Positions 2,328 to 46,670 of a DNA stretch of 64,000 nucleotides are shown here, one piece after another. The DNA comes from Pseudomonadota bacterium (GTDB taxonomy: Bacteria > Pseudomonadota > Alphaproteobacteria > Rhizobiales > Beijerinckiaceae). Position numbers and translations under genes: made by a program. A model generated the notes under the pieces. That model was given only the letters and a program-made list of their open reading frames with translations. It searched no databases and had not been told where the DNA came from. The stretch's first letter is position 1, and every line of letters starts with the position of its first letter. Where the stretch lies: contig JAJZGX010000001.1 of assembly GCA_021804825.1 (NCBI GenBank), positions 1-64,000 of the forward strand. The letters run 5' to 3'.

Positions 2328-2882
2328 TCAGGCCTTGAAAATACCTGCCCCGGATTGGCGCAGGCTTTCCAGCCAGGCTTCGCCGAAGCTCTGCCAGGCC
2401 TTGAACTGGGTCTGCGAGAAATCCTGCGCCAGCTTGAAAGCTTCCACAGGTGTCTTGCTCGAAGCCAGGGCATTGGCGAGCTGAATCTGCCCCTTGCCCT
2501 GATCGAGCCACAGTGCCACCGCACGGGCATTGAGGGCTTGGAGACCCTTCGCAGCCTCTACGGTCTTGGTTGCGGCTTTGGCCCGCACGGCTTCCGGCTT
2601 GGCCGCAGCAACGGAGGGCTTTGCCACAGGTGCCGGGCCGGTCTTGATCTCGACCAGCTTGGGTGCGGCAACTTGCGGCGCCGCGACCTTGACAGCGGCT
2701 TCGACCACGGGGGCGGCCGTCAGCTTGGGCGCAGCGACAGGCGCTGGTGCGCTGACAATGGCCGGTTTTGCAGCAACGGTGGGACGCGCCTTGGGCTGCG
2801 GCGGCGTGGTTTTTTGAACGATCGGCGCGGCTGACGCTGCTGCTTTGGCCTTGCCCGCCGAATTGGTAAGCTTGCGCTCCAT
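2328..2882 (-). CDS. Phasin-family protein with Ala/Pro-rich N-terminal arm
   Basis: The protein has about 184 residues. Residues 1 to about 110 are low-complexity Ala/Pro/Lys/Val (repeated PAPVAAPK-like units). The last 75 residues are an amphipathic helical segment (ALNARAVALWLDQGKGQIQ, then FKLAQDFSQTQFKAWQSFGEAW) of phasin type. Phasins coat polyhydroxybutyrate granules. The ATG at 2882 is preceded by AGGAG at good spacing; a GTG one codon earlier is possible. It follows the phasin gene at 2905 on the same strand and is probably cotranscribed. The N-terminal arm resembles the Lys/Ala/Pro-rich tails of histone-like or PhaF-type proteins, so a link between granule and nucleoid is conceivable but unproven. 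Confidence 0.65.
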   Translation of the reverse strand: MERKLTNSAGKAKAAASAAPIVQKTTPPQPKARPTVAAKPAIVSAPAPVAAPKLTAAPVVEAAVKVAAPQVAAPKLVEIKTGPAPVAKPSVAAAKPEAVRAKAATKTVEAAKGLQALNARAVALWLDQGKGQIQLANALASSKTPVEAFKLAQDFSQTQFKAWQSFGEAWLESLRQSGAGIFKA

Positions 2883-2904
2883 CACATCAACTCCTGTCAG
2901 CTGC

Positions 2905-3264
2905 TCACTTGGCCTTCATTGATTTCTGAACCGCTTCGCCAAGTTCTTTGGCCTGCGTCTGGATGGCAGCCATCTGAGTCTTGGCAAATTCGCTCTGGAG
3001 CGCCAGAACTTCGCTGAAATCCTTGGCTTTCACCAGTTTCTGGGCCAGATCGAATGCAGCCGAGACATTGTCCTGCGCATAGGTCATGGCCTTTTCGGTC
3101 ACGGTCTTGGCATTGGCTTGCAGCGATGATGTCGTGCCTTCGGCCTGACCAGCGGCCTTCTGGGCCGCGCCCATGAAGCCCTCAAAGGCTTTGCGTGCCT
3201 GATCAACGCTCTTTTCTGCAAATTCGCGCATTTCGCCGGGAACCTGATAGGGTGAATTGCTCAT
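2905..3264 (-). CDS. phaP: Phasin (PHB granule-associated protein)
   Basis: A 119-residue, almost wholly helical protein (MREFAEKSVDQARKAFEGF, AAQKAAGQ, FDLAQKLVKAKDFSEVLALQ, FAKTQMAAIQTQAKELGEAV) that matches the alphaproteobacterial phasin family (Phasin_2). Phasins cover the surface of poly-3-hydroxybutyrate granules and control granule size and number. The ATG at 3264 is chosen because GGAG lies 7 bases upstream; a TTG two codons earlier would also be in frame. The promoter carries two TGC-N3-GCAA sites, the first abutting a TATAAT box (3365-3399), fitting PhaR-type control by polymer level. It is followed by a second phasin-like gene. Confidence 0.85.
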   Translation of the reverse strand: MSNSPYQVPGEMREFAEKSVDQARKAFEGFMGAAQKAAGQAEGTTSSLQANAKTVTEKAMTYAQDNVSAAFDLAQKLVKAKDFSEVLALQSEFAKTQMAAIQTQAKELGEAVQKSMKAK

Positions 3265-3270
3265 GTCCAA

Positions 3271-3628
3271 ACTCCATTGATGGGGCTCCCCCTTGCCTCA
3301 TGTGCTGGGAGCCGGTCGGGCCTTGGCCCGCGCTCGAATTGAACGCGAGCATGATATAGGGCCGATTATATTGCATTGCAACATAATTGTGCGGTGCAAT
3401 ATGCGAATTTCCGCCGGATTTTGGGGTCAAATTGGCGCATTGTCGTGGTGGTCGGTCGTGAATTGCAACCATCGCCATGATTCAAGCTTTGCAGGCATGG
3501 ACAGACCGGGGGGTTGCCGCTAGCCTGTCGCGGCATTTTTACCCATGCAGCGCGGCAAGCAAACCGCGCCGGGCGCAGGAGGCCAGCGCTCAGGGACAAG
3601 CCATGACGATCATGCCGAGGAACAGGCG
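3271..3628. other. Intergenic region between phasin and kinase genes
   Basis: This divergent region holds the phasin promoter elements at 3365-3399. It also holds the 5' side of the kinase gene, where the frame is open from 3545 but the best ribosome-binding site is at about 3618. No further gene is supported. A lone TTGCAA at 3463-3468 resembles half of the phasin operator. Confidence 0.4.
3365..3399 (-). promoter_or_regulatory. Phasin promoter with PhaR/PhbF-type operators
   Basis: On the minus strand, TGTTGCAATGCAA (3371-3383) is followed directly by TATAAT (3365-3370), a good -10 box for the phasin gene. The core TTGCA-n-TGCAA is a perfect dyad and fits TGC-N3-GCAA. A second TGC-N3-GCAA, TGCGGTGCAA on the plus strand, lies at 3390-3399. 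PHB-responsive repressors (PhaR, PhbF) are known to bind such motifs at phasin promoters. A repressor here would overlap the polymerase site. Confidence 0.6.
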
Positions 3629-21471: not shown

Positions 21472-21539
21472 GACGCGCGGTCGCTTGAATTATGCCAACC
21501 TTGTGCGTTGCACCGATCACCTAACCTGAAAGGCCAGCC

Positions 21540-22274
21540 ATGTCCGCCGCCCCACAATCGCGCTGGAAGCGGGCTATGGTGAAGCTTTCAGGTGAGGCGA
21601 TGATGGGGTCGATGACCCACGGGCTTGATCCAGCGACGCTCAAGCGCATGGGTGCGGATCTGGCCGAAGGTGCGGCGAGCGGCGTGCAACTGGCAATTGT
21701 CGTGGGCGGCGGCAATTTCTTTCGCGGGATGCAGGGTGCCGACAAAGGCATCGAGCGGGCGCGGGCTGATTCCATCGGGATGCTGGCGACAGCCATGAAT
21801 GCGCTGGCGCTGGAGGCAGCGATCGAGGCCGCCGGTTGGCCGTGCCGGGCGCTGTCAGCCATTGCGATGCCGCAAATCTGTCAGCCCTATTCGCGCCAGG
21901 CTGCGCTGAATCACATGAACAAGGGCCGCATCGTGGTGCTGGCGGGGGGCACGGGCAATCCGTTTTTCACCACGGACACGGGCGCGGTTCTGCGCGGCGC
22001 CGAGCTTTCCTGCGATGCCGTGCTCAAAGCGACGCAAGTCGATGGCGTTTATAGTGCCGACCCTAATCGTGACCCGACGGCCACCCGCTATGATAGCCTG
22101 ACCCATGATGAGGCCATCTCCCGCAACCTTGCCGTCATGGACACTGCGGCCTTCGCCCTGGCGCGCGAAAACGCATTGCCAATCGTGGTGTTCTCGATAC
22201 GCGAGGCCGGCGCGATCACGGCGGCATTGACCGGCACCGGACGATGCACCATCGTCACGCCCGCATCTGCGTGA
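21540..22274 (+). CDS. pyrH: UMP kinase
   Basis: 244 residues, the usual length. Amino-acid-kinase motifs are VKLSGEAMMG, VVGGGNFFRG, GTGNPFFTTDTGAVLRGAEL and KATQVDGVYSADPN. It phosphorylates UMP to UDP with ATP as a hexamer, allosterically controlled by GTP and UTP in the family. Start ATG 21540 with AAAGG. Confidence 0.97.
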   Translation: MSAAPQSRWKRAMVKLSGEAMMGSMTHGLDPATLKRMGADLAEGAASGVQLAIVVGGGNFFRGMQGADKGIERARADSIGMLATAMNALALEAAIEAAGWPCRALSAIAMPQICQPYSRQAALNHMNKGRIVVLAGGTGNPFFTTDTGAVLRGAELSCDAVLKATQVDGVYSADPNRDPTATRYDSLTHDEAISRNLAVMDTAAFALARENALPIVVFSIREAGAITAALTGTGRCTIVTPASA

Positions 22275-34195: not shown

Positions 34196-35224
34196 TTACG
34201 CGGCGCAGGCCATGAAACCCTTGTGCAACTCGTCTTTTTTCAGGTCTTTGCCGATAAAGACGATCCGGCTGATGCGCTTTTCATCGCTTCGCCAAGCGCG
34301 CTGCGTGTCGCCCTCGATCATCATGTGCACACCTTGAAAGACATAGCGCCGGTCTTCGCCGCGCAACGACAAAATGCCCTTGGAGCGCAGGATCGAGGCG
34401 CCATCGCGTTGCAGCACGTCATTGATCCATGGCATGAATTTGGCCGGCGCGACATCGCCCTCGATGGTCAGCGAAAGCGATTGCATGTCCTCGTCATGAT
34501 AATGTTTCAGGCCATGGTGGTGATGATCATGATCATGGTCGTGATCGTGGTGGTGGTGATGATCGTGGTCATGCTCATCGACTTCGAGGAATTCCGGCTC
34601 CAGATCGAGAATACGTTCGAGATCGAAGGCGTTGCGCCCAAGCACCGCGTCGAGTGCGACATCGCAGCGCGACGTCTTGTGCAGCTTGGCATAGGGGTTG
34701 ATGGCGCGGATGCGGGCCTCGATCAGCCGCATTTCGGCGGGCGTCACCAGATCCTGCTTGTTGAGCACGATCACATCGGCAAAGGCGATCTGATTCTTGG
34801 CTTCGGGTGAATCTTTCAACTGGGTGGCGAGAAACTTGGCGTCAGCCACGGTTACAACGGCGTCCAGTGTGGCCTTTTCCTGCACATCCTGGTCAACAAA
34901 AAACGTCTGCGCCACCGGGGCGGGGTCGGCCAGCCCCGTGGTTTCGACGATGATCGCATCAAAGCGACCCTTGCGTTTCATCAAACCCTCGATGATGCGG
35001 ATGAGATCGCCACGCACGGTGCAGCAGATGCAGCCGTTGTTCATTTCAAAAATTTCCTCATCGGCGCCGACGATCAGGTCGTTGTCGATGCCGATTTCAC
35101 CGAACTCATTGACGATAACAGCATATTTCTTGCCGTGGGGCTCTGAAAGAATGCGGTTCAGCAGCGTCGTCTTGCCGGCACCAAGATAGCCGGTGAGCAC
35201 AGTCACGGGAATTTTGTCGGCCAT
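34196..35224 (-). CDS. CobW/COG0523 GTP-dependent metallochaperone with His-rich loop
   Basis: 342 residues. Walker A is GYLGAGKTTLLNRIL, the metal site is CxCC in NNGCICCTVRGDLI, Walker B is in VETTGLADPAPVAQ, and the guanine motif is NKQD. Between the GTPase and the C-terminal CobW domain is a His/Asp run (about residues 218-245, some 16 His) that must bind metal, probably zinc. COG0523 proteins deliver Zn, Co or Fe to client enzymes. No Zur box was recognised upstream. The start ATG at 35224 is divergent from bdhA. Confidence 0.92.
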   Translation of the reverse strand: MADKIPVTVLTGYLGAGKTTLLNRILSEPHGKKYAVIVNEFGEIGIDNDLIVGADEEIFEMNNGCICCTVRGDLIRIIEGLMKRKGRFDAIIVETTGLADPAPVAQTFFVDQDVQEKATLDAVVTVADAKFLATQLKDSPEAKNQIAFADVIVLNKQDLVTPAEMRLIEARIRAINPYAKLHKTSRCDVALDAVLGRNAFDLERILDLEPEFLEVDEHDHDHHHHHDHDHDHDHHHHGLKHYHDEDMQSLSLTIEGDVAPAKFMPWINDVLQRDGASILRSKGILSLRGEDRRYVFQGVHMMIEGDTQRAWRSDEKRISRIVFIGKDLKKDELHKGFMACAA

Positions 35225-35343
35225 CAGCGGCGCCCTTTCAAATGTCGGTCATGATTATTGCGCAGACTTGCGCGTCTCTGCCATCACAATCGTGAGATAA
35301 GCACTACCGGCTTTGACGACAAGGCTTGAATCAACCGCCAAAT

Positions 35344-35356
35344 TGTTGCACTGCAA
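35344..35356 (+). promoter_or_regulatory. PhaR/PhbF-type operator upstream of bdhA
   Basis: TGTTGCACTGCAA differs at one base from the motif in the phasin promoter and contains the same perfect TTGCA-n-TGCAA dyad. It lies 108 bases upstream of bdhA and on the same strand, as the phasin site does for its gene. It fits TG-n-TGC-N3-GCAA, the motif I recall for the PHB regulator PhbF. Confidence 0.6.
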
Positions 35357-35464
35357 AACCGGAGATGAAATACAGCTCTTTGGCGCCGGGATGGCGCCCG
35401 GTTTTCGAAATATGCCTCAATAGTCACTGCCCCCTGATGCTCGACAACCCCAAGGATTTTCCCC

Positions 35465-36250
35465 ATGTCACTGAAAAACCGCGTCGCCCTCGTTACCGGC
35501 TCAACCTCTGGCATTGGTCTTTGCATCGCGCGGGCGTTCGCCGCGGATGGAGCGCATATCATGATCAACGGTCTAGGCGACCCGGTGGCGATTGAAACCG
35601 AACGTGCCAAGATCGAGAGCGATTTCGGCGTCAAATGCCTCTATTCCAGCGCCGATATGACCAAACCCGATCAGATTGTCGGCATGGTCAAAGATTGCGA
35701 GGCCAAGCTCGGGGCCTTGGATGTGCTGGTGAACAATGCCGGCATCCAGCATGTCGACCCGATCGAGAATTTTCCGCCCGCGAGCTGGGATGCGATCATT
35801 GCCATCAATCTTTCCGCCGCATTTCATGCCATCCGCACTGCCGTCCCCGGCATGAAGGCGCGCAAATGGGGCCGCATCATCAATACCGCATCGGCCCATT
35901 CCAAGGTCGCTTCGCCGTTCAAATCGGCCTATGTTACCGCCAAGCACGGCCTCAACGGCCTGACCAAGACCGTTGCGCTGGAAGTTGCAACTGATGGCAT
36001 CACCGCCAATTGCATTTCTCCCGGCTATGTCTGGACGCCGCTGGTGGAAAAGCAGATCCCCGATACGATGAAAGCCCGCAACATGACCAAAGAGCAGGTC
36101 ATGCATGACGTGCTGCTGGCGGCGCAGCCCACCAAGGAATTTGTGACGGTTGATCAGGTTGCGGCGCTCGCGCTGTTTCTGACCTCGGATGCAGCTTGCA
36201 ACATCACGGGCGCCAACCTGTCGATCGACGGAGGATGGACGGCAGAATGA
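35465..36250 (+). CDS. bdhA: D-3-hydroxybutyrate dehydrogenase
   Basis: 261 residues, the usual length. It has TGSTSGIGLCIARAFA, VNNAGIQHVDPIENFP, the Ser in INTASAHSKVASPFKSAY with Tyr/Lys in YVTAKHGLNGLTK, and the substrate-lid and end motifs VEKQIPDTMKARNMTKEQV and LSIDGGWTAE. These are specific for BdhA. It oxidises 3-hydroxybutyrate to acetoacetate with NAD in the breakdown of PHB. AAGGA precedes the ATG. A PhaR-type operator lies upstream, and a patatin gene follows after 10 bases. Confidence 0.95.
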   Translation: MSLKNRVALVTGSTSGIGLCIARAFAADGAHIMINGLGDPVAIETERAKIESDFGVKCLYSSADMTKPDQIVGMVKDCEAKLGALDVLVNNAGIQHVDPIENFPPASWDAIIAINLSAAFHAIRTAVPGMKARKWGRIINTASAHSKVASPFKSAYVTAKHGLNGLTKTVALEVATDGITANCISPGYVWTPLVEKQIPDTMKARNMTKEQVMHDVLLAAQPTKEFVTVDQVAALALFLTSDAACNITGANLSIDGGWTAE

Positions 36251-36260
36251 GGTGCCGGCC

Positions 36261-37364
36261 ATGACCTCGACAAAAGAAAATGCCATCGACTGGAATGGCG
36301 AGAAGAAAATCTCGCTGGCCCTGCAGGGTGGCGGCGCGCATGGCGCGTTCACCTGGGGCGTGCTCGACGCCATTCTCGAAGATACGCGCCTTGATATCGA
36401 AGCGATTTCAGGTTGCAGCGCCGGTGCCATGAACGCTGTGGTGCTGGCGGAAGGCTATCTCGAAAATGGCCGCAAGGGCGCGCGCGAAAAGCTGTATCAC
36501 TTCTGGCACTCGATCAGCGACGACGGCACGGTCAATGGCAGCCTGCGCGAGGTGTTCGAGCAGGTGTTTTCGGGCGCCTCCTATGAGGACAGCCCGCTTT
36601 ACCTGTTCGCTGATCTGCTGACCCATTACGCCAGCCCCTATCAGTTCAACCCGCTCGACATCAATCCGCTGCGCGATCATCTGGTCAAGATGATTGATTT
36701 CAAGAAGGTGCGCGCCTGCTCGCACATGAAACTGTTCATTTCCGCCACCAATGTCGAGACCGGCAAGATCGCGATTTTTAAGGGCGAGGACATGACGGTG
36801 CATCATCTCCTGGCCTCCGCTTGCTTGCCTTATTTGTTTCAGGCGGTGGTGATTGACGGTGTGCCCTATTGGGATGGCGGCTATATGGGCAATCCCGCCT
36901 TGTATCCGCTGTTTTATCAGGCGAGTTCGCAAGACATCCTGCTGGTGCAGGTCAACCCGGTCGAGCGCGACGGCGTGCCCAAAACGGCGCGTGACATTCA
37001 AGACCGCATCAACGAAATCACGTTCAATGGCGCTTTGCTGCGTGAGTTCCGGGCGATCGAATTTGTCAACCGGCTGATCAACGAAGGCAAACTGGCCGAG
37101 GACGAATACCGGCGCTCCTATGTGCACCGCATCGATGGCGGCAAGGCGCTCGGGAAATATTCCGCCGCCACCAAGCTCAACAGCGCCTGGCCGTTTTTGC
37201 AGGAATTGCGAGACCTTGGCCGCGACGCCGCGAAAGCGTTTCTGGCCGCTCATTATGCCGACCTCGGCCAGCGCGGCACTCTCGACTTGCGTGATGCGTT
37301 TTCAGGCGGCATCATGAAACGCACCGTCCCTGCCCTGCCAAACAAGGCCAAAAAGCGCGCCTGA
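36261..37364 (+). CDS. Patatin-like phospholipase (DUF3734 type)
   Basis: 367 residues from the ATG at 36261 (GAGGT upstream). It has the oxyanion motif [15 protein letters not shown], nucleophile Ser53 in [10 protein letters not shown] and catalytic Asp205 in [10 protein letters not shown], that is, the patatin Ser-Asp dyad. The C-terminal third ([20 protein letters not shown]) is of the DUF3734 kind. It hydrolyses acyl esters; patatin-fold proteins next to bdhA are frequent in Hyphomicrobiales, and the fold is also used by some PHB-granule hydrolases, so a role at the granule is possible. No signal peptide, so cytoplasmic. Confidence 0.92.
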
Positions 37365-37387: not shown

Positions 37388-38797
37388 ATGACTTATGATG
37401 CCATTATCATCGGCACTGGCCCTGGGGGCTATGTCTGTGCCATTCGCGCTGCGCAATTGGGTCTGAAGATTGCCGTAGTGGAAAAGCGGGCCACGCATGG
37501 CGGCACCTGCCTCAATGTCGGGTGCATCCCCTCGAAAGCCCTGCTGCATGCCTCGGACATGTTTCATGAGGTAGAGCATAATCTGGCAGCCATGGGCATT
37601 GTCGCGAGCCCCAAGCTCGACCTGCCCGCGATGATGCGACACAAGCAGGAGACTGTGGATGCCAATGTCAATGGCGTCGGCTTCCTGCTGAAGAAAAACA
37701 AGATCGATGCCTTCCATGGCAGTGCCACGCTGAAAGGCGCTGGGCGGGTCGAAGTCAAAGCGGCCGACGGCGCGGTGACGGCCCTTGAAGGCAAGGCCAT
37801 CATCATCGCGACAGGCTCGGATGTCGCCCCCTTGCGCGATGCGACGGGTGCCGTGATTGCCATTGACGAAACGACGATACTTTCCTCCACCGGGGCGCTG
37901 ACGCTTGAAAAAGTGCCTGAGCACCTGGTTGTGGTGGGCGCCGGGGTGATCGGGCTGGAATTGGGCTCGGTCTGGGGTCGGCTTGGCGCCAAGGTCACGG
38001 TGATTGAATATCTTGATCGCATCCTGCCGGGCATGGATGGCGAAGTGGCGCGTCAGTTCCAGCGCATGCTCGAAAAGCAGGGCATGACCTTCCGGCTCGC
38101 TCAAAAAGTGACGGCCGTGCGGCGCAAGGGCAAAGGCGTCGAAGTCACCGCCGAGCCGGTGGCAGGCGGCGCGTCTGAAGCCATTGATGCGGACAAGGTG
38201 CTGATCGCCACGGGACGTGTCGCCTATACCGAGGGCCTCGGGCTTGAAGCGCTGGGCGTCACGCTGGAGCGCGGGCGCATTGTCATTGATGATCGCTTTG
38301 CCACCAATGTGCCGGGCATCTATGCCCTTGGCGATGTCGTGCGCGGGCCAATGCTGGCTCACAAGGCCGAGGATGAAGGCGTCGCGCTGGCGGAAATGCT
38401 GGTGGGTCAACACGGACATGTCAATTACGGCGTCATTCCCGGTGTCGTCTATACCATGCCGGAAGTTGCCAGTGTCGGGCAGACCGAGGAAGACTTGAAG
38501 GCCGCGAAGATTGATTATCGCATTGGAAGATTTCCTTTTACGGCCAATGGCCGGGCGCGTGCCATGCGCCATACCGAGGGTTTTGTGAAAGTGCTCGCGG
38601 ATGCGACCACAGACAGGGTGCTTGGCGTGCATATCATCGGCTTTGGCGCTGGCGACATGATCCATGAGGCCGCTGTGCTGATGGAGTTCGGCGGTTCTGC
38701 GGAAGATCTCGCGCGCACATGCCATGCCCATCCCACCATGTCCGAAGCCGTCAAGGAAGCGGCCATGGCGGTGGATAAGCGCGCCATTCACACGTGA
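37388..38797 (+). CDS. lpdA: Dihydrolipoyl dehydrogenase (E3)
   Basis: 469 residues. The FAD motif is [19 protein letters not shown]; the redox-active disulfide is Cys41/Cys46 in [19 protein letters not shown]; the NAD motif is [15 protein letters not shown]; the catalytic His-Glu is in [13 protein letters not shown]. It reoxidises the lipoyl groups of 2-oxoacid dehydrogenase complexes and glycine cleavage. Here it is not next to sucAB but follows the patatin gene after 23 bases and precedes an S4 protein after 3 bases. Confidence 0.96.
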
Positions 38798-46555: not shown

Positions 46556-46670
46556 CGAAATCGCGGTGTGGCGCGGGATGGTTCGGCGTGACAATGCCAT
46601 GAGGTAACAAGGTATTAACCATAAATGCTCTAGCCTGTGCGCTGCAACAACATGTTGAATCGGTGGCATT

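Follow-up and report, generated by a model that had tools for sequence, protein, structure and literature searches.

Does a single regulator control both the coating of PHB granules and the breakdown of the polymer in this genome? The question is raised by a short dyad that precedes the 3-hydroxybutyrate dehydrogenase gene bdhA and recurs 32 kb away before a phasin gene, both within the window, the stretch of 64,000 nucleotides analyzed here. In all probability the site before bdhA is a genuine operator, through which an already known regulator, acting at a familiar type of site, would have a new target. On the strength of its sequence, we consider it quite likely to be a PhaR operator that couples granule coating to a breakdown unit composed of bdhA and a patatin gene.

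The repeated dyad and its gene context

The 13-mer TGTTGCACTGCAA was located at positions 35344 to 35356 of the forward strand, upstream of bdhA, as the earlier note had it. The 11-bp dyad TTGCA-C-TGCAA occupies 35346 to 35356 (+) and ends 108 bp before the bdhA ATG (35465), an intergenic placement in the promoter region. The features at this locus are as follows.

35344..35358, + strand: predicted PhaR operator before bdhA, TGTTGCACTGCAAAA, 21.6 bits on the S. meliloti matrix
35465..36250, + strand: bdhA, D-3-hydroxybutyrate dehydrogenase (TIGR01963 370 bits, cutoff 307; PDB relatives)
36261..37364, + strand: patatin-like hydrolase, candidate PHB depolymerase (PF01734 E 2e-22; GCSAG and DGG motifs)
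37388..38797, + strand: dihydrolipoyl-dehydrogenase-like flavoprotein (PF07992 and PF02852)
34196..35224, - strand: CobW-type GTPase, divergent neighbor of bdhA (PF02492)

The PDB relatives of bdhA are D-3-hydroxybutyrate dehydrogenases. The patatin gene starts 10 bp 3' of bdhA, and both the GXSXG serine motif (GCSAG) of the patatin domain and DGG are present in its translation; the gene neighborhood and, by analogy, the literature make its product a candidate PHB depolymerase. The two genes are presumably co-transcribed, and the dihydrolipoyl-dehydrogenase-like gene, 23 bp 3' of the patatin gene, may by its position belong to the same transcription unit.

The other copy of the site lies upstream of the phasin unit, which comprises the following features.

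2905..3264, - strand: phasin (PF09361 E 5e-15; TIGR01985 107 bits, cutoff 99.7)
2328..2885, - strand: phasin-like gene (weak PF09361 match, E 6e-4, below cutoff)
3369..3383, - strand: predicted phasin operator A, TGTTGCAATGCAATA, 18.7 bits
3387..3401, - strand: predicted phasin operator B, TATTGCACCGCACAA, 17.0 bits, 18 bp from A

The phasin-like gene is the probable second gene of this unit; when 2328-2885 (-) was scanned whole, no Pfam or NCBIfam match was obtained, the Phasin_2 match being weak and below cutoff. The phasin copy of the site, TGTTGCAATGCAA (3371-3383, -), lies on the strand of the phasin gene and differs from the bdhA site by one base, which agrees with the earlier description. 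The emphasis of that description on the coding strand in both cases carries little evidential value, because the core is palindromic and the TG flank alone is directional. At a second phasin gene on another contig (L006:1499-1680), one box lies directly 5' of TTGACA and one between TTGACA and TATATC, a typical textbook repressor layout. The exact dyad copy of that locus falls within the last part of the preceding ORF, roughly 300 bp 5' of the phasin start, and the better-placed boxes are nearer the gene.

Match to published PhaR boxes

PhaR is encoded elsewhere in the same genome (PF07879 E 1e-28; TIGR01848 138 bits, cutoff 109) and in 49 of the 50 genomes of relatives; no solved structures resembling it by sequence were found. 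PhaR boxes have been described for several bacteria, namely, TGCRNYGCASMA for B. diazoefficiens (PMC6201568), WNWDDNYGCRNYGCRNHHWNW with the core YGCRNYGCR for S. meliloti (PMC12542648), and the palindromic YTKNTGCRNYGCANMAR for R. eutropha (PMC12849132). In its core the bdhA site agrees with each of these, TGCACTGCA at 35347-35355 matching the PhaR-box core (TGCRNYGCA or YGCRNYGCR), and 16 of 17 positions agree with the R. eutropha box when compared by hand.

Sites were scored with a matrix of 15 positions, for which 24 EMSA-positive S. meliloti sites, with either efficient or weak binding of PhaR, served as the training set. The training sites score between 12.2 and 22.0 bits, the phasin site 18.7 and the bdhA site 21.6, which is within the range of the experimentally bound sites. 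The bdhA site, whose 3' arm ends in CCG, does not fit the extended AT-rich arms of the S. meliloti box (WNWDDN...NHHWNW). These arms are a species consensus from which some bound S. meliloti sites, such as those of zwf and wgaA, likewise depart at their ends (PMC12542648). The strict published 21-mer had 22 matches genome-wide versus 11 for the reversed control, the bdhA site not being among them. Because it gave so few matches relative to the control and missed this site, the 21-mer did not serve as the principal test. In S. meliloti, a close site before guaB, TTGCACTGCGA, showed no PhaR binding, and that of sdhC, exactly TTGCACTGCAA, was bound only weakly (PMC12542648).

Frequency of the dyad in the window and genome

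Exact copies of TTGCANTGCAA (TTGCA-N-TGCAA) in the window were confined to the phasin and bdhA sites. Six were found in the genome (2.78 Mb, 163 contigs), corresponding to two phasin loci, bdhA, and three positions inside unrelated coding sequence (a saccharopine-dehydrogenase-fold gene, lemA, and a tannase-like gene); the reversed control pattern had none. The looser palindrome TNNTGCRNYGCANNA matched 46 times versus 9 for its reversed control. The genome scan consisted of pattern searches and fetched stretches, and gene context was determined for part of the listed sites. Allowing two mismatches, 36 dyads were counted in the window versus 54 expected from shuffles, with no excess, so that the evidence lies in exact, well-placed, and conserved copies and not in abundance.

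The base-composition estimate of about one exact copy in the genome, together with the three of six copies in coding sequence, speaks for chance, by which a ten-base palindrome would simply have happened to fall before bdhA.

Outside coding sequence, about 12 further strong boxes are present, with gltA, ccrA, bioY, prs, and a hydrogenase gene among the genes nearby. The earlier note had named numerous additional copies at genes without a PHB link as a result that would refute its proposal, and these boxes are in part such copies; since PhaR regulons are known to be broad, they are no argument against PhaR. The strong copies lie either between the called coding sequences or at their edges, with gene starts taken from simple ORF calling. 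Strong PhaR-like boxes of 18-21 bits near genes for citrate synthase (L214, C105), crotonyl-CoA carboxylase/reductase and BioY (L213, C83), a MaoC-type hydratase (L217, C138), and ribose-phosphate pyrophosphokinase (L223, C71) possibly mark a wider acetyl-CoA regulon. Boxes of 21.7 bits (L149, C159:8122-8142) and 18.5 bits (L141, C59:4133-4153) lie about 80-105 bp before the genes for a rubredoxin-reductase-like flavoprotein and the NiFe-hydrogenase small subunit, respectively, and another strong copy is near an HlyD-type protein gene. The window also holds two weaker intergenic boxes, at 21501-21515 (14.2 bits, before an ORF starting at 21540) and at 46635-46649 (14.6 bits, before a 519-aa ORF with a weak EpsL-like match). 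Before both phaC genes, phaZ, and phaR of this genome, no well-placed box was seen.

Conservation of the box at related bdhA loci

The site was compared with 80 bdhA loci from other genomes, which are mutually related and therefore do not represent 80 independent trials. A box of at least 10 bits was present within 200 bp 5' of bdhA in 43 of the 80 loci, versus 2 of 80 in reversed sequence and 0 of 80 in the bdhA coding sequence. Boxes of at least 12 bits numbered 41 in the 16 kb immediately 5' of bdhA versus 18 in the remaining 434 kb. When palindromes 5' of bdhA were counted without reference to the motif, TGC-N3-GCA ranked top (39 loci versus 7.2 expected from shuffles); no other palindrome with three-base half-sites came close to this excess, and TGCR-N-YGCA led among four-base half-sites. 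The position of the box varies from -29 to -130, and the promoter flanks differ. Since the box recurs before bdhA or its patatin gene across many genera, at distances that vary and between flanks that have diverged, chance is hardly credible, and it was rejected on the conservation in bdhA promoters and the motif-free palindrome excess.

A real operator could also serve the divergent CobW-type GTPase gene instead of bdhA, as the box lies roughly midway between the two divergent starts and the closest relatives (L016, L025) have the same arrangement. The CobW gene, however, adjoins bdhA in only 3 of the 80 loci, and the box is kept before bdhA in dozens of loci that lack it. Because most relatives retain the box in the absence of the CobW gene, this target is very unlikely and was rejected.

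The neighboring patatin gene was followed across the same loci. Where a related patatin lies 3' of bdhA, a box of at least 10 bits was found in 33 of 43 loci, compared to 7 of the 25 loci in which a patatin was not detected. In an alternative order, a more distant patatin (about 29% identity) lies 5' of bdhA. Three of these patatin-first loci (L061, L067, L083) carry the box 56-92 bp before the matched patatin start, and in two others (L064, L094) it remains before bdhA. In several genomes, though not in every one, the box thus travels with the bdhA-patatin unit whichever gene comes first. In a separate class-wide sample of patatin relatives, boxes of 19.8 bits were also observed 175 and 86 bp before patatin genes without an adjoining bdhA (L191:1326 and L209:1415, respectively), suggesting that patatin itself may be a target.

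The conservation has its bounds. The class-wide sample contained 10 loci with bdhA beside patatin, of which only one (L186) had the box before the unit, so that the arrangement is limited to certain clades. The box is missing from almost every bdhA promoter of Microvirga and Methylobacterium, though the genomes have PhaR. Such genomes, and the fact that DNA alone cannot name the protein binding it, would suit a conserved operator bound by a different regulator of similar TGC-N3-GCA specificity. We regard this as unlikely, since the matrix was derived from PhaR-bound sites, the same box stands in the phasin promoters, and almost all of these genomes encode PhaR.

Comparison with known PhaR systems

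The earlier note regarded PhaR as best known for phasin and synthesis genes, in contrast to breakdown. This view is contradicted by the published work. In S. meliloti, PhaR binds and represses depolymerase genes, PHB sequesters PhaR and thereby relieves the repression of phasin and depolymerase genes, and the authors place the synthesis genes outside PhaR control (PMC12542648). In B. diazoefficiens, PhaR binds and represses depolymerase genes (PMC6201568), namely, phaZ1 and phaZ3 (PMC6201568, PMC10888616). Deletion of phaR in Methylorubrum extorquens led to upregulation of a homolog of the patatin-like depolymerase PhaZh1 (PMC6520949).

The window resembles the S. meliloti PhaR/AniA regulon in the box core YGCRNYGCR, the PHB-titration logic, and gltA as a predicted target in both. 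It differs in that the reported breakdown targets there are phaZ and SMa1961 and not bdhA, which the table of S. meliloti targets does not list (PMC12542648), and in that S. meliloti bdhA adjoins xdhA2 and xdhB2 (PMC5596199), unlike the bdhA-patatin pair of the window. B. diazoefficiens shares the TGCRNYGCASMA box and the paired boxes around the -35 of phaP1 (PMC6201568, PMC10888616); in the passages of PMC6201568 consulted, bdhA was not found among the PhaR targets and appeared as a background mention only. In R. eutropha, by contrast, the reported PhaR targets are the phasin genes and phaR itself, and depolymerase control by PhaR was left open by the authors (PMC12849132).

PhaR of R. eutropha activates phaP3 (PMC12849132), which brings up the alternative that PhaR binds the bdhA site but activates the gene or has little transcriptional effect. 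It would fit the result that no sigma-70-type promoter was recognised in 35225-35500. Most S. meliloti boxes are nevertheless at PhaR-repressed genes, including depolymerases (PMC12542648), and we hold activation or little effect to be rather improbable, although less so than the other alternatives considered. Repression by PhaR is accordingly the reading preferred here.

For the gene pair itself, the closest parallel lies in Haloferax mediterranei, where bdhA is directly 5' of the patatin-like PHA depolymerase gene phaZh1, and both BdhA and PhaZh1 were found on granules (PMC7137286). PhaZh1 hydrolyses PHA granules in vitro, although PHA mobilisation was unchanged in the phaZh1 knockout (PMC7137286). 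This parallel and the M. extorquens result both speak for a role of the patatin in PHB breakdown. H. mediterranei differs in being an archaeon with an AbrB-type PhaR, and the function of PhaZh1 could be carried over to the window patatin by analogy.

Proposed coupling of granule coating and breakdown

A PhaR-matching site precedes both the coat gene and the probable breakdown genes and is kept in many relatives, so one switch probably controls both. The earlier proposal of one regulator for phasin and bdhA-patatin is thus borne out at the level of sequence, through the published boxes, the presence of PhaR in the genome, and conservation across genera.

At low PHB, free PhaR would occupy the TTGCA-N-TGCAA sites of both the phasin genes and the bdhA-patatin unit and keep their expression low. 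As granules form, PhaR, a PHB-binding repressor, would move onto the polymer and off the DNA, assuming that PHB titration operates here as it does elsewhere. Its release would allow phasin to be made and to coat the granule, and bdhA and patatin to be made simultaneously as a mobilisation pair. The patatin-type hydrolase would yield 3-hydroxybutyrate, which BdhA would oxidise to acetoacetate.

That PhaR controls phasins and PHB depolymerases is known from earlier publications, and a literature search of incomplete coverage found no report of bdhA-patatin as a conserved PhaR target. In a broader form, PhaR would directly couple coating to a unit of bdhA and a patatin-type intracellular depolymerase in Beijerinckiaceae, Xanthobacteraceae, and some other alphaproteobacteria, in the present genome instead of to a classical phaZ, with the operator staying with the unit upon a change of gene order in several genomes; for this wider claim we see the balance as even.

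If true, the feedback that makes phasin at granule formation would also make the enzymes that consume the polymer, and the cells would already be prepared for breakdown during storage. A specific regulator and operator would be assigned to bdhA, and the neighboring patatin would represent an overlooked intracellular PHB depolymerase in alphaproteobacteria.
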